NCBI GenBank assembly: GCA_020723405.1
Contig: DYIY01000028.1
Span: forward strand, 1 to 34,052
DNA: 34,052 nucleotides
Direction: 5' to 3'
From: Thiobacillus denitrificans
GTDB taxonomy: Bacteria; Pseudomonadota; Gammaproteobacteria; Burkholderiales; Thiobacillaceae
Both the position numbers and the translations under genes were made by a program. Each line of letters opens with the position of its first letter. Positions within the stretch are counted from its first letter, which is position 1. Below the pieces are notes generated by a model that saw nothing but the letters and a program-made list of their open reading frames with translations, was not told the origin of the DNA and did no database searches. Of the stretch, positions 1-7,986 are shown one piece after another.

Positions 1-7
1 GGCGTAA

Positions 8-448
8 ATACCTGATCCTGGGCGTTGGGGGGAGGTGGGTGGGCTGGACGCTTACTTCCCCGCAGACTATCTCGGCGACCCGGCACGGTTGCGCCAGGCT
101 CTGGGCAATTACGCCGCCAACGCGGCCAAATTCACCGAACGCGGGACCGTATCCCTGCGCGCCCAACTGCTGGAGGATGGGATGGACGACAGCCTGATTC
201 GTTTCGAGGTGGTGGACACCGGCCCTGGCATTTTGCCGGAGCATCGATCAGGTATCTTCAGTCTCCAGGAACCGACCGGTCATCCTGCCTGGCAACGAAC
301 CCAGGGCGACGGCCTGGGGCTTGCACTGGGGCTCGCCGTCACCCAACGGCTGGCGGGTTTGATGGAGGGCAAAGTGGGTGTGGAAAGCACACCCGGTGTA
401 GGCAGCACCTTCTGGTTCACCGCCCGGCTGAAAAAAGCCGGACGGTGA
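8..448 (+). pseudogene. Histidine kinase ATPase-domain remnant (C-terminal fragment)
   Basis: The frame is open from base 8, just after a TAA at 5-7, and has only a GTG at 35 as a candidate start. The product looks like the C-terminal HATPase_c domain of a sensor kinase: an N-box-like stretch (ALGNYAANAAKFTE), a G1 box (DTGPGI), a G2 box (GDGLGLAL) and a typical ending (GVESTPGVGSTFWFTARL). The dimerisation/phosphoacceptor domain is missing. Compared with ordinary hybrid kinases, such as the two intact ones later in this window, residues are missing before the GDPARLRQ motif and the segment between G1 and G2 is scrambled. I infer decay of a kinase gene whose 5' part lay to the left or was lost. 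A frameshift near the G-run at 27-34 is possible. It converges on the Slam-like gene with a 16-base gap. Activity as a stand-alone ATPase is unlikely. Confidence 0.6.
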
Positions 449-464
449 GGCCCTTCAGCCCGGA

Positions 465-1817
465 TCAGAAGCGACTGGACAGCATGACCGTCAGCATGGC
501 CTTGTGGTAGTCGGTCAGGGCAACGGTGGAATCGTTGCGGGTCAGGGTGGCGCCGACGGACAGGTTGGTACCCTTCTTGTCCAGGGGCTTGTTCAGGTTG
601 GCCGTCAATTGGTACTGCCAGTCCATCTGGGAGTTGTCGCAGCCCGAGCACAGGCCGGCATACAAGGGATCGGGCTCGGTCTTGACGATGCGGCCGATGG
701 AAGGCTGCACGTAAAGGCTCATATCCCAGGGCAACCTGGTGAACCAGCCCAGGCTCACCGCCGCACTGTTCGTGTCGAACCAGTTGACCTGGGTCACTTC
801 CCGGCCCAGGCGTAGGCCGGGTTGCAGGAAGGAACCGTTGCCCAACTGCTGGCGGAAGGCCAGGTTCAAACCGAAGGCATAGCCATCCCGATCCGGGGAT
901 AGGGATCTGTGCTGCCTGCGCGAGACGGTGACCGTCCCGTTAATACTCTGGTCACGGTTCAGGTTGTAGCGCACCTGGGGAGCCAGACCGTAGGTATGGC
1001 TGTAGTAGTCGTGGCCGACTTCGGTATGGTCCAGGATGGCCGGCAGGGAGACGACAAAATCATCCACCTTCCAGGTGGGCCCGGCGGACACGGAAGCAAC
1101 CAGTTGATCGCTGTCGTTTTCGCTCTGGTAATCCAGGCTGAAGGCGTTGAATTCGAATTGCAGGGCCATGTTCTGATTGAGGGCATGGGTGTAGGAGAAT
1201 CCGCCATTCATACCCCAAGCTGTATCTCGACGTCCTGTAACCCCCTGAAATGTTGGACAACCAACCTGCTCACAACTGGGGCCTGTGTTGACGTTGGTGT
1301 CCACCACGTAACTCAAAGCCAGGCGGGCCTGCCAGGGCCGCTGGGCGGCGATGCTGTCCAGGAAGCGCTGGATGTTCTCGCCCACCACCGGGGGCGGGTT
1401 GGTGGCCTGGACCGCCTCGAAGGCTTCCCGGGCCTTATCGTTCTGGCCCAGAGCCATGTAGGCCCGGGCCATTTCCAGGCGCACCCGGGGCAGGTCGGCA
1501 TTCTCGGCCAGGATGCCCTGATACAGGGCCAGGGCCTCATCCGGTTTGTTGATGCGGGAGGCGCACTGGCCCAGCATGAAGCGGGTGTCGATGTCCCCCT
1601 GGTTGGCCTCCAGGTTGGCCTTGAGGATGTCGTAGGCCTCCTGGAAGCGGCCGGCATTCATGTGGCCGATGGCCTGGCGCTTGTAGGCGGGGATGGCGGG
1701 CTTCGCACCGGGTTTGAAAACTACCGAGGGGGTTTGCTGCGCTTGAACAGGAAAAGCCATCAAGAGGCAAGCCAACAATTGAACTGCCAATATTGCGGGT
1801 CGAATGTATCGGTTCAT
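465..1817 (-). CDS. Slam-like (DUF560) outer-membrane translocator with N-terminal TPRs
   Basis: The 450-residue product begins with a signal peptide (hydrophobic stretch ending VQA-QQ at about residues 25-27). TPR-like helical repeats follow over about residues 45-155 (GRFQEAYDILKANLEAN, KPDEALALYQGILAEN, GQNDKAREAFEAVQ). The rest, about 165-450, alternates polar and aromatic residues and ends in Phe (VMLSSRF), as expected for an outer-membrane beta-barrel. This TPR-plus-barrel layout and the junction RPWQARLALSYVVDTNVN match the surface lipoprotein assembly modifier (Slam, DUF560) family, which moves TbpB-like proteins across the outer membrane. It lies 21 bases after the TbpB-like gene on the same strand and is probably co-transcribed, so the two TbpB-like proteins upstream are its likely clients. 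An AGGTGG Shine-Dalgarno precedes the ATG at 1817. The family call is strong; the clients are inferred from context. Confidence 0.8.
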   Translation of the reverse strand: MNRYIRPAILAVQLLACLLMAFPVQAQQTPSVVFKPGAKPAIPAYKRQAIGHMNAGRFQEAYDILKANLEANQGDIDTRFMLGQCASRINKPDEALALYQGILAENADLPRVRLEMARAYMALGQNDKAREAFEAVQATNPPPVVGENIQRFLDSIAAQRPWQARLALSYVVDTNVNTGPSCEQVGCPTFQGVTGRRDTAWGMNGGFSYTHALNQNMALQFEFNAFSLDYQSENDSDQLVASVSAGPTWKVDDFVVSLPAILDHTEVGHDYYSHTYGLAPQVRYNLNRDQSINGTVTVSRRQHRSLSPDRDGYAFGLNLAFRQQLGNGSFLQPGLRLGREVTQVNWFDTNSAAVSLGWFTRLPWDMSLYVQPSIGRIVKTEPDPLYAGLCSGCDNSQMDWQYQLTANLNKPLDKKGTNLSVGATLTRNDSTVALTDYHKAMLTVMLSSRF

Positions 1818-1838
1818 GGACTATCCACCTGATTGGGT

Positions 1839-3515
1839 TTATTTCGATTTTACCGTTCTGCTTGAGGACAGATCCCCACCAACATATTGATCAAAGGGTA
1901 CACCGCCATGCTTTCCAAGGAATATACCAGCGCCGGTATCTTCACCGTGATTTATTCGCCAACTACCTCCCAGTTCCTGGGCACTCGGCCCGAAGAAAAC
2001 CCCCTTTGCCACCCCTGTCACCGAGCTTCCATTGCCCAAATCGGCAGAAACTAGATTATGGCCAGCACTCCAGCCACCGTTGACTGTTACGGAACTCAGC
2101 CAAGTCAAACCATTTTTCATTATATTATCAAACGATCCGGTAACGGTCCGGCTCCCGAAGTTGACATTCCAATTCATTTCCCCCAACAGCAAGGACTTGT
2201 CCTGGGTATAGCCAATCATTCCGCCAGTGTAACTGACAACACCAGATAGCGGCATCTGGGCTGGGCTGGTTAACTCGCCGGCAACCCAGAAACCCTCATC
2301 ATCATATTCCATGTCGGTACTCTCACCAACACTCTGGTATCCGTAGGAAACCCAAGACCCCCAAGTAGAATAGGAAAACTGGTTCACAGAATCATAATAT
2401 CCTTCCAGCGAATATCCCACCCCGTGGTAATCATCAATTCCATCTGAAGTCGTACTCTGGTGTGTATAAAAATACTCTGTCCCATCGTAATAACTTACGC
2501 TATAGTCCGAGCCATAGCATGACTCGGTAAAAGCATCACATGTTGATATGTTCACCATATCAACAATGGGGCCCGCCCCCCCTGCAAACATATCACCATC
2601 TATGAAAATGGATGCGTCTATGTAAACCTTGGTGAGCCCCTCATCTTCCATCACTCTGAAGCCAAGTTGTGCACTGGTTGGACTATCCGATGCAATGACT
2701 TGCTGGATACAGGAATCCTGGTAATAGTCACACCTGTCCACATATCCCGCCGCGAAGCCACTGAGCGAAGCCACGATATCGTGGCCGGCAATTTCGTCGA
2801 TTATGTCGCGTTGTACATCTTCGATAGACTTCTTGGAGTCACCCACCCCGGTGTTCTCCCTTGCACTTTCAAGCAAATCAGATCTCCCGGAATCTGTCTC
2901 ATCGACAACCAACTCCACCGGATCCATCCGGGCTTCCTTGTCCTTGCCGCCCCGGCCGTCGCTCAGGCCCAGGTCCTTCATCCGGCCGCCGCCCTGGTTC
3001 ATCCGCTGCAACTGCCGGTCCGCGTGCCGCTGCCCTTCCTCCCGGGCCGTCCGGCGCATGGCCCGCAGCTCGTTGCCGCCGCCGCCGGCTCCCACGTTCA
3101 CGTTCGGCATCAGCCGCGCCATCCCCGCCGCCAGGCCGAAGCCCGGGTCATGCCGCGCGGCTTCCTTGAAGGCCGCCGCCGCATCCTTGAACTGACCCTT
3201 GTCCGCCAGGTCCAGGCCCTTCGCAAAAGCCTGCAAGGCCTGGGGATTGCTCGTCTGGGGCTTCTCGATCTGCCCCCGCACGGCCGGCGGCAGGGTCTCC
3301 AGGTCAATCCCCAATTGCTTGATCACCGTCAGCACCAGTTCCTTTTGCAGCTTCGTGAATTCGTCCATGCCCCCCTGGCTGCTCAGGGTCCCCAGCGTCT
3401 TGCCCGTCCCCGTCTCGATGGTCAGGCCGTTGATGTTCAGGTTCGGCGCGCCTTGCACGGCGCTTGCCGCCAGCGCCAGGGTGCCGGCCAGCAGGGAGAT
3501 TCGCGTTGCGCTCAT
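1839..3515 (-). CDS. TbpB-like putative Slam client, paralog 1 (CsgG half-domain + barrel)
   Basis: The 558-residue exported protein has three parts. A type I signal peptide ends about residue 24 (AVQGAP) and has no lipobox Cys. Residues about 25-150 resemble the second half of a CsgG/TolB-like domain and its helical tail (NINGLTIETGTGKTLG, then ALQAFAKGLDLADKGQF and ARHDPGF). After a Gly/Arg/Gln-rich linker, the C-terminal half has a TbpB-like barrel signature: GMIGYTQDKS, MNWNVNFGSRTVTGSFDN and GVAKGVFFGPSAQELGGSW. Four Cys occur as two close pairs. I chose ATG 3515 over the GTG at 3530 because AAGGA lies 7 bases upstream and the signal peptide then starts normally; the GTG overlaps the stop of the FecR gene. 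The half-domain DNA is identical to paralog 2, while the barrel region is divergent and AT-richer. The bound ligand is unknown. Confidence 0.75.
   Translation of the reverse strand: MSATRISLLAGTLALAASAVQGAPNLNINGLTIETGTGKTLGTLSSQGGMDEFTKLQKELVLTVIKQLGIDLETLPPAVRGQIEKPQTSNPQALQAFAKGLDLADKGQFKDAAAAFKEAARHDPGFGLAAGMARLMPNVNVGAGGGGNELRAMRRTAREEGQRHADRQLQRMNQGGGRMKDLGLSDGRGGKDKEARMDPVELVVDETDSGRSDLLESARENTGVGDSKKSIEDVQRDIIDEIAGHDIVASLSGFAAGYVDRCDYYQDSCIQQVIASDSPTSAQLGFRVMEDEGLTKVYIDASIFIDGDMFAGGAGPIVDMVNISTCDAFTESCYGSDYSVSYYDGTEYFYTHQSTTSDGIDDYHGVGYSLEGYYDSVNQFSYSTWGSWVSYGYQSVGESTDMEYDDEGFWVAGELTSPAQMPLSGVVSYTGGMIGYTQDKSLLLGEMNWNVNFGSRTVTGSFDNIMKNGLTWLSSVTVNGGWSAGHNLVSADLGNGSSVTGVAKGVFFGPSAQELGGSWRINHGEDTGAGIFLGKHGGVPFDQYVGGDLSSSRTVKSK
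2923..3449. repeat. 527-bp perfect direct repeat, copy 1
   Basis: Reading the two paralogous genes base by base, this segment is identical to 5991-6517 (constant offset of 3068). It covers the CsgG-like half-domain and the Arg/Gln-rich linker of paralog 1. Identity breaks at both ends: within the signal-peptide cleavage region on one side and just after the RMDP codons on the other. Both copies are in the same orientation, so recombination between them would delete the FecR gene and one barrel. Confidence 0.95.
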
Positions 3516-3526
3516 GATCCGGTCCT

Positions 3527-4810
3527 TCACTTGTCAGTCTTGAGCTGGTAGTCGCCCAGCATGATCTTTTCCGCCTTCATCAGCTTGCCGGCCCGGATGG
3601 CGCTCTTTTCGTCCACCAGGCCGCTTTCGGAAAGTTGCATTTCCTCGATCAGCTTTTGCAGCTTGGCCCGCTCCAGCACCTTGATGCCGGGCACCTTGGA
3701 CAGGTCCGAGATCACCATGGCGGTCAGGCCCTTGGACAGCACCGCCTGGGCCGCATCCCCCCGGTTGACGAAGGGCAGCACCGCCACCGTGCCCGGCTCG
3801 GGGGGAGCGGCGGAGAGAGCCGCTTCGGCCGCCACCGCACGCTTGATCTCGTCCTTCAGGGTTTCGTGGATCAGCAGGGTCATCTTGGGGCCCACCTGCA
3901 GGGCTTCCGCGCCAGCAGGGTCCAGACGGCTGAACAATTGCCACTGGCGCAGGGCTTCCACGTTGTCTTCCGCATCCAGGGCGATGCGCCCCAGGTGGTA
4001 GGCGGCCTGGGCATTGCCGGGGAAGGCGTTCTGCAGCCGGGTCAACAGGGGCTTGGCCTGGGCGTCACCCTGGGCCAGGGCGCCCAACGCCGCCTTCATG
4101 GCCGGGGCTTCCGGGCTGGTGGCCAGGGTGAAGTCCACTTCCTCGCCATTGCGGATTGCGTTCAGCGGACCGCTGCTGTGCTTGAGGCCCGCCGCCAGGG
4201 GAATCGCCTTCCCCCCCTCCGCTTGCCAGCGGGCCAGCATCCGCCAGTCCCGGGTGGCATCACCCGCGTCGTAGCGGTCGCTGTCCCGCCAGGCGTCCCA
4301 GTTGTTGAAGGCCATGACCGTGCTGCCCGTGCTCCGGGCTTCAAGGCCCAGCTTGCCGCCCGTGGCTTCCAGTTCGCCGCCGGGGGCTTCCACCATCAGG
4401 GCGGTCCGATTGCCTTCGACCGGTTGGACGTAGATGGCCGCCTGGCCGGTCCAGACGCGGAACCGCTCCACGCTGACCACCTGGGCCACCACCCCTGCCC
4501 CCAGGTGCAGGGCATCTCCGTTCTTCAGTTGGATGCGCAGCCGGGTGTCGGGTCCGGTGGCCAGCACATCACCGGCCCGGATGGCCAGGCCGTCATCCAC
4601 CTTCCAGAGTCCTTCGCCATCCTTCACCGCCGCCTGACCGACCAGCAATTCCACCGCCCCCAGGCCTTCGCCTCCGCTCCGGGCCGCCTTGGCCTGGCCC
4701 AGATCCACACCCTGGGGTTGCTCGGGGAGCCCGCCATGGGCCAACCCACTCAGGATCAGGGTGAGCAGGGACAGGGCGGGGATGCGCCGGGGTAGGTGAT
4801 AGACCTTCAT
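3527..4810 (-). CDS. Exported FecR-domain protein ending in a half CsgG-like domain
   Basis: The 427-residue protein has a signal peptide (about residues 1-27, LSGLAHG). A FecR-type domain follows at about 50-160 (WKVDDGLAIRAGDVLATG, LRIQLKNGDALHLG). A TPR-like segment lies at about 245-305 (AAYHLGRIALDAEDNVEAL), and the C-terminal region from about 342 is CsgG/TolB-like (TVAVLPFVNRG, LSKGLTAMVISDLSKV, VLERAKLQKLIEEMQL, AEKIMLGDYQL). The protein then stops at LKTDK, where related domains would continue with further strands and helices. Those apparent missing elements begin the next gene, whose GTG at 3530 overlaps this stop codon. The ATG at 4810 has AGAGG 7 bases upstream. FecR domains occur both in anti-sigma regulators and in secreted scaffolds; with a signal peptide and no inner-membrane anchor apparent, a periplasmic or surface role beside the Slam-like gene is more likely. 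Confidence 0.75.
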   Translation of the reverse strand: MKVYHLPRRIPALSLLTLILSGLAHGGLPEQPQGVDLGQAKAARSGGEGLGAVELLVGQAAVKDGEGLWKVDDGLAIRAGDVLATGPDTRLRIQLKNGDALHLGAGVVAQVVSVERFRVWTGQAAIYVQPVEGNRTALMVEAPGGELEATGGKLGLEARSTGSTVMAFNNWDAWRDSDRYDAGDATRDWRMLARWQAEGGKAIPLAAGLKHSSGPLNAIRNGEEVDFTLATSPEAPAMKAALGALAQGDAQAKPLLTRLQNAFPGNAQAAYHLGRIALDAEDNVEALRQWQLFSRLDPAGAEALQVGPKMTLLIHETLKDEIKRAVAAEAALSAAPPEPGTVAVLPFVNRGDAAQAVLSKGLTAMVISDLSKVPGIKVLERAKLQKLIEEMQLSESGLVDEKSAIRAGKLMKAEKIMLGDYQLKTDK

Positions 4811-4921
4811 GGTTAACCTCTACATTGCCAAGTTGTCGATTGGGTTATATCGATTTTCATCCCACCACACCACCATTCTGGATCGGCAAATGGAAGTTGG
4901 CATGGATGAAATGCAAAAAAA

Positions 4922-6586
4922 CTAGCGGGCTGATTGCCGGCCATAGCAACCGCGCGCATTGCAATCATAAAACGCCGTGCCCCCTGGCTTGCTGAGAAAA
5001 ATTCCGGCGGCATTTTCGTAGCCGTCGCCGCTGGACTTCTTGATTTGCCACGCCCCCCCAAATTCTTCGGCGTTGGGGCCATAGAATGCCCCCTTGGCCG
5101 TGCCCGAGACGACGTTGGCTCCGCTCAGGGTGGCCGACACGGCATTGCTGCCCGCCGACCATCCTCCGTTGGCGTCCACCTGGGAGAGCCAGACGGAGTC
5201 GGTTCCGGCATAGACCAGATTGTCAAAGGTGCCGGAAACGGTCCTGCTGGCGAAATTCACGGTCCAGTTCATGGAGCCTTCCAGATAGGCGAAATTCTCG
5301 GTGATGCCGACGACTCCGCCCGTATAGGCGGCCGATCCGCTGGCGGGTATGTTGGCGGCCGGGGTCAACTGCCCGGCGACCCAGTACCCCTCGAAATACT
5401 CCCCGGTGTCGCCGTTGAAGTCATACCAGTAGCCCCAGGCGCTGTAGTCGAACTGACTGGAATCCGTCTCGAGCTCGGAGGTCCAGAAAAACCGGAAGAC
5501 GCCATTGTTCCAGTCATCCAGGAAGACCGCGAAGTTGTTCTTGTCGAGATATTCGCTGTACACCCCGACTTCTTCCGTGTAATAGCTGCATCCTTCGTCA
5601 GAAATGCTGCATGCGGAGGTCAAACTGAAGGCCGTGCCGGGCTCCGAATTGCCGAACAACATGTCGCCAAAGAGGTTCAACGCGGCATCGACCTGGAATT
5701 CGCTCGGGCGAAAATGGAGCAACACGCTGTCGCTGCTGCCTTCCACCATGATTTCCTGTGCCAGACAGCCATCCGGACACCACTCGAAGATGCCGGCGGA
5801 AAATCCCTGGTAGTCCTCCGGCAAGGGCTCGCCGCCCCCAGAATCCGGTATGACCTCTTCAATGTCCCGGCGCTGAGTGTCCTCCTGGTTGTTCGGGACT
5901 TGGTTGAGGGCCAGCAGATTCTGCTCGCCGTTGCCATTGCCCGGATTCCCGCCGCTGCCGTCCGTCAGGTCATCGGCCAGTTCCACCGGGTCCATCCGGG
6001 CTTCCTTGTCCTTGCCGCCCCGGCCGTCGCTCAGGCCCAGGTCCTTCATCCGGCCGCCGCCCTGGTTCATCCGCTGCAACTGCCGGTCCGCGTGCCGCTG
6101 CCCTTCCTCCCGGGCCGTCCGGCGCATGGCCCGCAGCTCGTTGCCGCCGCCGCCGGCTCCCACGTTCACGTTCGGCATCAGCCGCGCCATCCCCGCCGCC
6201 AGGCCGAAGCCCGGGTCATGCCGCGCGGCTTCCTTGAAGGCCGCCGCCGCATCCTTGAACTGACCCTTGTCCGCCAGGTCCAGGCCCTTCGCAAAAGCCT
6301 GCAAGGCCTGGGGATTGCTCGTCTGGGGCTTCTCGATCTGCCCCCGCACGGCCGGCGGCAGGGTCTCCAGGTCAATCCCCAATTGCTTGATCACCGTCAG
6401 CACCAGTTCCTTTTGCAGCTTCGTGAATTCGTCCATGCCCCCCTGGCTGCTCAGGGTCCCCAGCGTCTTGCCCGTCCCCGTCTCGATGGTCAGGCCGTTG
6501 ATGTTCAGGTTCGGCGCTCCGTGGGCCACAACCGGACCCGCCAGCGCCAGGGCCGTCAGAACGGCTGATAATGTTTTGTCTCGCAT
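4922..6586 (-). CDS. TbpB-like putative Slam client, paralog 2 (CsgG half-domain + barrel)
   Basis: The 554-residue paralog of the 1839-3515 gene is first in the cluster. It has a signal peptide (about residues 1-24, VVAHGAP, no lipobox Cys) and then the CsgG-like half-domain and linker, identical to paralog 1 in DNA. The C-terminal region is TbpB-like, with AYTGGVVG, MNWTVNFASRTVSGTFDN and GTAKGAFYGPNAEEFGGAW. Cys pairs (WCPDGC, ACSISDEGC) sit where paralog 1 has its own. The C-terminal region matches paralog 1 only in scattered motifs, including F-YSxWGxW and VAGxLTPA. A very strong AAGGAGG lies 5 bases before the ATG at 6586, which suggests high expression. After its stop, a 111-base gap with a T-run leads to the FecR gene. 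The protein is probably secreted or surface-exposed through the Slam-like barrel; its ligand is unknown. Confidence 0.75.
   Translation of the reverse strand: MRDKTLSAVLTALALAGPVVAHGAPNLNINGLTIETGTGKTLGTLSSQGGMDEFTKLQKELVLTVIKQLGIDLETLPPAVRGQIEKPQTSNPQALQAFAKGLDLADKGQFKDAAAAFKEAARHDPGFGLAAGMARLMPNVNVGAGGGGNELRAMRRTAREEGQRHADRQLQRMNQGGGRMKDLGLSDGRGGKDKEARMDPVELADDLTDGSGGNPGNGNGEQNLLALNQVPNNQEDTQRRDIEEVIPDSGGGEPLPEDYQGFSAGIFEWCPDGCLAQEIMVEGSSDSVLLHFRPSEFQVDAALNLFGDMLFGNSEPGTAFSLTSACSISDEGCSYYTEEVGVYSEYLDKNNFAVFLDDWNNGVFRFFWTSELETDSSQFDYSAWGYWYDFNGDTGEYFEGYWVAGQLTPAANIPASGSAAYTGGVVGITENFAYLEGSMNWTVNFASRTVSGTFDNLVYAGTDSVWLSQVDANGGWSAGSNAVSATLSGANVVSGTAKGAFYGPNAEEFGGAWQIKKSSGDGYENAAGIFLSKPGGTAFYDCNARGCYGRQSAR
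5991..6517. repeat. 527-bp perfect direct repeat, copy 2
   Basis: This segment is identical to 2923-3449 and codes for the CsgG-like half-domain and linker of paralog 2. Perfect identity next to strongly divergent 3' halves suggests recent duplication or gene conversion. Confidence 0.95.
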
Positions 6587-6696
6587 GACAACCTCCTTGA
6601 TGTTTGCCTTCTTGTCTGGGTCTGCCCGGTTGACCAGGCCAGTAAATGAATGTCCGGCAGCCGACCCTGATGCAAGCGAAATGAAAAATTATGTAA

Positions 6697-6745
6697 AGAC
6701 CGGTCTATGTTTACTGCCCACCCCCCCAGTGTCAAGTTTTTGACA
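6697..6745. promoter_or_regulatory. Candidate divergent control region with two dyads
   Basis: The 212-bp gap between the divergent genes starting at 6586 and 6799 holds a perfect dyad TGTCAA-GTTT-TTGACA at 6730-6745. Each half contains a TTGACA -35-like hexamer, one per strand. It also holds a 10-bp palindrome AGACCGGTCT at 6697-6706. For the minus-strand cluster, TTGACA (6735-6730) is followed 16 bases on by TAAACA, and the stretch TACATAATTT lies further down. Possible promoters and an operator are inferred; no known regulator consensus was matched. Confidence 0.35.
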
Positions 6746-6798
6746 GCCCGGCGGCGTGGGTTCCCGTTCTGGCCCAACCGGGAGCATCCCGGCCCAGT

Positions 6799-7986
6799 TT
6801 GAATGATCTTCATCAAGGCTTCTCCTGGCAGACCGGGGATGATGCCCACAGTCTGAAAGCGCCACGTTCCGCGTCCATGCTGATTGCCCTCATCGCTGCC
6901 ACCCTGCTTGCTTTCCTGGCCGGCCAGACCCTGCCCCGGGTGTTTGCCGCCGCACCGGCTTTCTGGGCCCACGTCCCCCTGGCCCTGGGGGTCATGACGT
7001 TGATCACGGCCGCCATGCAGCACTTCGCTCCCGTTCTCACCCGGGGCAGATCGCCAGGCCCATGGATCGCCCGCCTGCCCGGGCTGATGTTCCTGGCCGG
7101 GACGCTGGCCGTGGCGGTGTTCGCGGGCGGGCCAGGATATGCTTGGCTTTCCGTGGCTGCGGGCCTGGCCCTGGCGGTCGGGTTGGCCATGCTGGCATGG
7201 ATGGTGAATCTGGGTCGCCGGACCCTGGGCACCCCCCATCCCGGCCTGCACTGGTACGTGGCGGCCATGGGCTGCCTGGCTCTGGGACTGTTCGCCGCCC
7301 TTCTCCTGCCCTTTTTTCCCCAATGGCATGGGCCCCTGCGGGCTTTTCACCTGCACATCAATCTCTATGGTTTCGTGGGCCTCACCGCCGTGGGTACCTT
7401 GCAGGTCCTGATGCCCACGGCTGCCGGCCAGGCGGACCCGGACGCTGCTTCGCGTCTGCGCCAGGATCTGAAGTGGGCCCTGGCTGGCAGCCTGCTGCTG
7501 GCCGGCGGACAGGCTTCCGGCCTGCCGCTCCTGGCCTGGTTGGGTGCCCTGGGCTGGGGCTGGACCCTGTTGCGCCTTCTCACCGCCTGGTGGCGCCGGC
7601 ACCGCAAGCGCATCCTGGCCTGGCATGGGGCGGAACCCCTGCTGGCCGTGGCCACCCTGGGTTTCGCCGCCGCCCTCACCGCCCATCTGGGTGGTTGGGT
7701 GGAGGGGGGCCCCCTGGCCTTGTTCCTGCCCGGCTTTCTCATGCCCCTGGTCAGTGGCGCCGCCGGCCAACTGGCACCGGTATGGGTGGGCACGGGCCGT
7801 CCGGCACTTCGCCATGCCCAGGACCGGGCCCGCCTGACCCGCTGGAACGGCCTGCGCGCCCTGCTCTTCCTGGCCGCCATTCTCCTGCCCCTGCTGGGCT
7901 ACCGCTGTGCCGGCATGCCCGCCTTGACCGCTCTGGCCTGGTTCGGCATCGTGTTCGGCTTCTGGCTCTACCGCGATACCGACTGA
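6799..7986 (+). CDS. Polytopic membrane protein, heme-copper-oxidase-subunit-I-like
   Basis: The 395-residue, very hydrophobic protein has about 11-12 predicted membrane segments. Several His residues sit in or near helices: MQHFAPVL, LHWYVAAMG, FHLHINLYGFVGLTAVG and AWHGAEPLL. The HLHINLYGF helix followed by a PTAAG loop recalls heme-binding subunits related to cbb3 oxidase subunit I and NnrS-like proteins, but the full set of oxidase His ligands was not identified. I would call it only a possible heme membrane protein. The start is uncertain: TTG 6799 gives the full frame, but no convincing Shine-Dalgarno was seen; the first ATG is at 6877. Its stop is immediately followed by the yhcC-like start at 7987, so it probably heads the operon with yhcC and ubiUVT, which would fit low-oxygen respiration. 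Confidence 0.6.
   Translation: MNDLHQGFSWQTGDDAHSLKAPRSASMLIALIAATLLAFLAGQTLPRVFAAAPAFWAHVPLALGVMTLITAAMQHFAPVLTRGRSPGPWIARLPGLMFLAGTLAVAVFAGGPGYAWLSVAAGLALAVGLAMLAWMVNLGRRTLGTPHPGLHWYVAAMGCLALGLFAALLLPFFPQWHGPLRAFHLHINLYGFVGLTAVGTLQVLMPTAAGQADPDAASRLRQDLKWALAGSLLLAGGQASGLPLLAWLGALGWGWTLLRLLTAWWRRHRKRILAWHGAEPLLAVATLGFAAALTAHLGGWVEGGPLALFLPGFLMPLVSGAAGQLAPVWVGTGRPALRHAQDRARLTRWNGLRALLFLAAILLPLLGYRCAGMPALTALAWFGIVFGFWLYRDTD

Follow-up and report, generated by a model that had tools for sequence, protein, structure and literature searches.

Can one protein domain be divided between two separately exported proteins? The question was raised by a minus-strand locus of Thiobacillus denitrificans in the window, that is, the whole stretch of DNA analysed (34,052 bases, all of contig C33 of a 4.15-Mb genome). 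In gene order, the locus holds client 2 (4922-6586), a gene for a FecR-like/TPR protein (3527-4810), client 1 (1839-3530), and a gene for a Slam-like outer-membrane protein (465-1817). The original prediction, made from these letters alone, held that the FecR-like protein stops midway through a CsgG/TolB-like domain, that the next gene supplies the missing strands after a new signal peptide, and that the FecR-like protein could dock secreted TbpB-like proteins by fold complementation. Both pieces almost certainly belong to a single domain, each making up half of it. This part of the prediction is strongly supported by whole-domain relatives in the same genome and in congeners, by a one-chain protein at another locus (L048), and by a predicted composite fold.

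The FecR-like protein (427 aa) begins with a signal peptide, judged by eye, and carries at its C-terminus the first half of a CsgG/TolB-N-type domain (residues 337-427, at 3530-3802), comprising strands 1-3 and two helices. Its sequence ends in AEKIMLGDYQLKTDK, followed directly by the stop, just past strand 3 and 5 residues beyond the end of the half-domain profile. Residues 338-419 matched Pfam CsgG at profile positions 8-96 of 210 with 33.7 bits (cut-off 20.8), which is the first part of the family only and agrees with the predicted stop inside the domain. The gene overlaps client 1 in a GTGA stop/start at 3527-3530, as had been read from the sequence, with the GTG start of client 1 at 3530. 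The heads of client 1 (3099-3446) and client 2 (6167-6514) hold the second half of the domain, strands 4-5 and a helix, plus TPR. Neither head gave a Pfam CsgG match of its own, and neither protein of the pair is a complete CsgG-fold alpha/beta domain, the clients matching the second-half profile only. Residues 37-141 of client 1 also matched TIGR04510 at positions 337-442 of 814 (25.1 bits).

Searches of the same genome with client 2 and, separately, with the FecR-like protein reached a 405-codon open frame on contig C27, which aligned with FecR-like residues 239-419 and then with client residues 35-132, in that order. The alignment of the client head to the second half of this frame bears out the proposal that the next gene supplies the missing strands. 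Whole-domain relatives of this type are present in both congeners that bear the split pair. At L048, in a metagenome-assembled genome of Desulfonema limicola, a 691-aa chain runs through TPR, the whole domain and TPR again to a weak slam_lipo-type barrel match, and adjoins a SlipAM gene. Genomes with both halves in one gene, which the original prediction had proposed to look for, include the host genome, the two congeners and that of L048. A scan covering 12 of the 29 whole ORFs (open reading frames) with the NCBIfam slam_lipo model at E≤0.01 matched L048 only, none of 10 further whole-domain proteins and not L023. An origin of the halves in different domain families was rejected because both align to the same single-ORF relatives.

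To see how widely the domain is divided, we drew on several searches, using the longest ORFs throughout. A pattern scan of the contigs of 84,980 species returned 189 pattern matches and 25 confirmed loci. Seven of these are betaproteobacterial and show the split (L035-L041); the other 18 belong to other groups, and every one of them includes one or more ORFs in which both halves are present (the ORF matched by the pattern was in pieces in L045 and cut in L046). Profile searches of 399, 369, 2 and 398 genomes yielded ten more split pairs in six genomes. In total, 18 ORFs with the first half only were found in 14 genomes, and all 18 adjoin a head-bearing ORF (in L038 the contig ends within the client, of which the first 40 profile positions match). 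ORF 7659 of L046, at a contig end, and L045 stayed outside the split count; at 7863-9070 of L045, the second half of a whole-type domain lies in pieces over two overlapping ORFs.

The position of the break proved to be constant. First-half ORFs end 3-7 residues beyond the half-domain profile, with one exception at 18 (n=18); the remaining ORFs that matched the first half in the loci scanned (profile E<1e-6) extend at least 51 residues beyond it, bar one at a contig end. Pfam CsgG matched all 18 first-half proteins, and the match ended at profile position 94-98 of 210 in each of the 12 for which the range was seen. ORFs of caspase/TPR/FlgO type and CsgG/LpoB type, in which a first-half match comes with a missing or weak second-half match, extend 51-146 residues past the half and do not enter the split count. 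The break sits in the turn between strands 3 and 4, where the loop has at most 17 positions in 29 whole relatives. All 19 clients examined have an N-terminus resembling a signal peptide at the break (by eye and with a loose motif, not SignalP), in line with the predicted signal-peptide insertion. The head starts 0-8 residues past a loose signal-peptidase-like motif in the same 19, so the mature client would start near strand 4. In L070, a single TAG lies between two in-frame genes. The large gene overlaps in L082, L083 and L085 are probably choices of start codon, given the use of longest ORFs.

The GTGA overlap in the window might be taken as the mark of an assembly error, a frameshift or a decayed gene, the domain being truly one gene here. 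However, a signal-peptide-like start stands at the junction in every client, there are 18 pairs across 14 genomes, and a second copy of the head lies in a separate gene on the opposite side of the FecR-like gene. In view of the conservation and of the separate signal-peptide-like starts, we rejected an artefact of this kind as extremely improbable.

We modelled the reunited domain as one read-through chain of the relative L070, with an alignment of 25 whole-domain and 16 first-half rows. This whole-guided alignment was chosen; split-only alignments misplaced client rows onto TPR or first-half columns. The composite model formed one domain, with a mean predicted local distance difference test score (pLDDT) of 85 and a predicted template modelling score (pTM) of 0.78. 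The first half contributes three strands and the second half two (strands including 85-96, 149-158 and 163-173), and the signal-peptide linker scored low. Foldseek matched the model to the CadC periplasmic domain (E 6e-5), to TolB, GNA1162, CsgG and PelC (E<1e-3; CsgG 4uv2, E 2.8e-4; PelC 5t0z, E 9.8e-4), to FlgT (E 1.6e-3) and LpoB (E 3.7e-3), and to the PelBC complex 9h80 (E 4.1e-3). Judging from their length of about 160-275 columns, gaps included, these alignments appear to cover both halves. In a separate model of client 2, residues 31-140 formed two strands and helices at pLDDT 58-74, residues 169-376 fell below 50, and residues 411-540 reached 72-89; Foldseek matched this model to TbpB, NHBA, fHbp and hemophilin.

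The system is rare, being present in 3 of 399 genomes of the order. When 398 genomes of the phylum were searched with the first-half profile, matches were found in G000, G870, G911, G961, G1006 and G965, the last in the whole form only. A head search of 398 genomes drawn likewise gave strong matches (E<1e-40) in G000, G870, G911, G961 and G1006 only, and all nine strong heads adjoin a first-half ORF. No orphan half was found among 398 genomes searched with each half at E cut-offs of 1e-22 and 1e-10, which weak orphans could escape; per genome, only the top candidates were scored, 4 in the first-half search and up to 11 in the head search. Five weak head matches (E about 1e-11) lay deep within ORFs of 572-840 aa, four of them with a first-half match too; L094 gave a weak head match and no first-half match with the profile used. 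With 18 of 18 first-half-only ORFs paired, the halves adjoin each other beyond chance. In the first-half tree (43 rows), the split forms make up one side of a branch (99/98, 200 of 200 bootstrap trees). In the second-half tree (42 rows) one change suffices as well, but it is less firmly supported, at 74/85 and in 75% of bootstrap trees. The trees fit one old split. The mirror-tree correlation (r 0.75, 17 pairs), equalled in 0 of 2000 permutations, is confounded by shared descent.

It could be argued that the halves are now independent small domains that never meet and that their adjacency reflects operon descent. In favour of this, the client head modelled alone reached pLDDT 58-74. The lack of orphan halves among the 398 genomes, the identical break point in 18 of 18 pairs, the identical heads beneath divergent tails described below and the composite fold all speak against independence, which we regard as very unlikely. 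The FecR-like protein and its client most probably pair physically.

The two clients of the window bear on this pairing. If both share one FecR-like partner, a constant head and varied tails would be required, as is seen in the window, where they flank a single FecR-like gene. A 527-nt block of client 1 (2923-3449), which runs from its mature N-terminus to about residue 202, is identical to 5991-6517 in client 2; the second client thus carries the same second half, as had been predicted. Identity between the two is 43.5% in the tails and 32% in the signal peptides. Client 1 (563 aa) passes from a signal peptide (by eye) through the second half, TPR and a middle region to a TbpB-type barrel (TbpB_B_D, residues 426-540, at 1911-2255; E 1.4e-8; 35.7 bits, cut-off 26). 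Client 2 (554 aa) has the same head and a different tail, with a TbpB_B_D/FHBP_C barrel at 5033-5350 (residues 413-518; TbpB_B_D 33.9 bits against 26). With NF041636, the model of Slam-dependent surface lipoproteins, they scored 60.7 and 56.9 bits, below the curated cut-off of 80. The head block has a G+C content of 0.69, compared with 0.49 for the tail of client 1 and 0.60 for that of client 2. The value for the client 1 tail (1839-2922), far below that of its head, suggests that this tail came from elsewhere. This combination of identical heads and divergent tails suggests that tails have been exchanged on a docking half that stays constant.

The 18 pairs were of two types. Type A (13 pairs) has a longer first-half protein and a TPR-barrel gene alongside. 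FecR matched at E≤0.05 in 10 of these 13, most of those seen falling below the cut-off of 24 bits (21.1 in L070, 19.9 in L083), which L081 exceeds at 27.0; L082 and L084 were scanned and gave no FecR match, and one scan matched 7 of 8 homologues at E≤0.05. The TPR-barrel gene matched SlipAM in the window, L041, L081, L082, L083 and L084, 6 of the 11 loci scanned (L036 and L038 excluded). In the window, this gene encodes the Slam-like protein, with TPR (TPR_19, 56.8 bits against 25) and a SlipAM barrel (PF04575, E 4e-12, 46.7 bits against 22). A TbpB_B_D or slam_lipo match in the client tail was seen for both window clients and, at scores under the cut-off, in L041, L081, L082 and L083. TPR matches below the Pfam cut-off were given by the heads of both window clients and by the FecR-like protein. 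Type B (L069, L071, L085, L086 and L087) has a short TPR first-half protein. TolC-like OEP genes adjoin L085, L086 and L087 (divergent in L087), DUF4347 giant proteins adjoin L085 and L086, and L069 stands next to a divergent Calx-beta/FG-GAP/RTX giant protein. Taken together, the two neighbourhoods indicate that genes for the export of surface proteins accompany the split pair in both of its forms.

Other features recur around the pairs. Upstream of the TPR-barrel gene, L037 has a giant frame (1-5172) with 17 YDG and 2 MBG_2 stretches by Pfam, and L035, L038, L039 and L040 have a giant or long open frame, judged by ORF only. The client of L041 (9307-13992) is 1561 residues long with three NCBIfam slam_lipo stretches, perhaps several barrels on one head. 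A large TPR/FlgO-CsgG-type gene adjoins the pair in L036 (3002-6645, with a caspase domain and an AhpC-like part by Pfam), L037 (9054-10061), L039 (9916-12770) and L040 (4850-8594). L036, L039 and L040 also have a small gene that matches a CsgG-type first half; the L037 contig ends there. A recurrent cluster of kinase-like, protease-like, AhpC/TPR-type and CsgG-type genes, judged from ORF sequences, lies near the pairs of L041 (112-5368), L081 (420-5970) and L084 (13637-19597). The host genome itself has a related pair on a contig other than that of the window (C9; L024, 4934-7565), of which 4934-6880 matched AhpC, TPR, FlgT_C and, weakly, CsgG in Pfam.

The two kinds of channel gene and the fold matches could also be read in another way. 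The composite domains would form a ring like that of CsgG or PelC where an outer-membrane channel opens to the periplasm, Slam-like in type A and TolC-like in type B; the pair would then be a part of the channel, and the barrel client one variant. PelB bears TPRs, and the Foldseek matches include the ring-formers CsgG (4uv2) and PelC (5t0z) along with PelBC (9h80). In PelBC, a ring of twelve PelC subunits sits on the barrel PelB, according to PMC12141448. Type B pairs, which lack a barrel match, nevertheless adjoin OEP/TolC genes at L085, L086 and L087 and DUF4347 giants at L085 and L086. On the other side, TolB, CadC and LpoB have the same CsgG-type fold and are not known to form such rings. 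We consider a ring rather unlikely.

Alternatively, the first-half protein may be a periplasmic holding chaperone. Its strand complementation would keep the client fit for export and would be undone once the entire client passed through the Slam-like channel. As a fold the head is incomplete, the client 2 model showing two strands and helices along with TPR; the overlapping or near-abutting genes fit co-translation, and donor-strand chaperones are an established principle. Against a chaperone stand the head columns, of which 11 of 117 are invariant (17 rows), many in the TPR part, and the type B clients, which have no barrel match and are no obvious cargo for that route. We judge this alternative to be unlikely.

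Rather than a ring or a chaperone, we favour, with moderate confidence, a composite CsgG-fold pair that docks the client at the channel. Building on the divided domain, its conservation, the co-occurrence of its halves and the predicted fold, we propose that a one-chain CsgG/TolB-N-type domain was cut at the turn between strands 3 and 4 by a gene break and a new signal peptide. The C-terminus of the FecR-like/TPR protein would bring strands 1-3 and two helices, and the mature N-terminus of the client strands 4-5, a helix and TPR. Sec would export each chain separately, and once in the periplasm the chains would form a composite heterodimer by completing their shared sheet. Through the FecR/TPR part, the client may then be docked or tethered beside the channel, a step that we put forward only tentatively. 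The disordered middle of the client would lead to its C-terminal TbpB-type barrel, which would leave through the neighbouring Slam-like TPR-barrel channel by type 11 secretion. By holding the client N-terminus, the composite domain may serve as a stop in the periplasm and so replace an absent lipid anchor.

Several observations weigh against the docking of clients by a composite domain. Within the composite model, first-half residues 51-80 reached only pLDDT 58-75, and the whole-domain rows in the one-chain L070 alignment partly build in the assembly, so the model shows that the halves fit, not that AF2 pairs them unaided. Query-normalised TM-scores from Foldseek were modest (0.24-0.49, no aligned ranges being given), and the client 2 model (mean pLDDT 51, 12 rows) is poor for judging the head alone. 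The distribution is patchy: among 149 relatives, head matches were found solely in G003 and G012 besides the host genome. The FecR label is itself below threshold in the window (PF04773, 15.4 bits against 24), and FecR was unmatched in the four type B first-half proteins that are complete (the L071 ORF begins at a contig edge). SlipAM was unmatched by the TPR-barrel genes of L035, L037, L039, L040 and L070 among the 11 loci scanned. Clients of L035, L036, L037, L039, L040, L070 and L084 gave no Pfam barrel match, and despite this the tails of the L035-L037, L039 and L040 clients align with the window barrels. The clients of all five type B pairs (of 18) have no barrel match. A lipobox-like motif is absent from all 19 client starts by a simple pattern, not SignalP. 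The slam_lipo match of L048 is weak (E 5e-4, 20.3 bits against 80), and its chain shows no FecR on reading the sequence.

With five of 18 pairs lacking a barrel match and four of these lacking a FecR match too, the pair is not only a TbpB dock, and the docking of TbpB-like proteins that was originally proposed would be narrower than what is there. A wider role is possible, albeit doubtful at present: the split CsgG-fold domain may be a general lipid-free docking or retention device at outer-membrane export channels, with swappable tails. The periplasmic first-half protein would capture any bearer of the second half by fold complementation, TbpB-type barrels going with Slam-like channels, whereas TolC-like channels and giant proteins would go with other tails. 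Should the halves indeed pair, they are a conserved natural case of one domain shared by two separately exported proteins, with partner choice encoded in half a fold. Type 11 secretion would gain a cognate periplasmic partner, surface retention of cargo lacking a lipid anchor would be accounted for, and a ready split-domain tool for surface display would be at hand.

Among known systems, type 11 secretion (Slam/TXISS) comes close in its genes, in that the SlipAM TPR-barrel gene of the window adjoins proteins with C-terminal TbpB_B_D barrels. Soluble cargo is handled there too, as in the case of HrpC, a hemophilin homologue, described in PMC8406197. The words FecR and CsgG do not occur in the main text of PMC8406197 and PMC12282271, both on type 11 secretion. 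Literature titles and abstract openings, a source that scarcely covers subscription papers and preprints, mentioned neither a split CsgG-fold domain nor a FecR/CsgG partner of Slam. Unlike the cargo of that system, the window cargo is headed by one half of a CsgG-fold domain, the other half of which is in the FecR-like protein. The fold itself is that of CsgG, the TolB N-domain, PelC, LpoB and the CadC periplasmic domain, to which the composite model was matched and of which the first half passes the Pfam CsgG cut-off. In those proteins the domain lies within one chain, whereas here it takes two chains with two signal peptides.

The PelBC exopolysaccharide exporter mounts its PelC ring on an outer-membrane barrel, as stated in PMC12141448. 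PelC is among the matches of the composite model, but it is a whole-domain lipoprotein, and the cargo of PelBC is a polysaccharide. In giant adhesins of type 1 secretion systems (T1SS), a folded N-terminal module of LapA type holds the surface protein at its channel. FecR-like residues 52-113 gave a weak match to such a module (NF033682 retention_LapA, E 6.7e-4, 19.9 bits against 50), and three type B pairs adjoin TolC-like genes, two of them with DUF4347 giants; here, in contrast, two proteins would make up the module, and the channel in the window is Slam-like. Donor-strand complementation in chaperone-usher pili fills an incomplete sheet with a strand of another secreted protein. The split pair would likewise have its incomplete sheet completed by another secreted protein, but the fold is a different one, and the donated part would comprise two strands with a helix, roughly half a domain. 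Compared with all of these, the new part is the divided docking domain, and its cargo and channel are of known kind.

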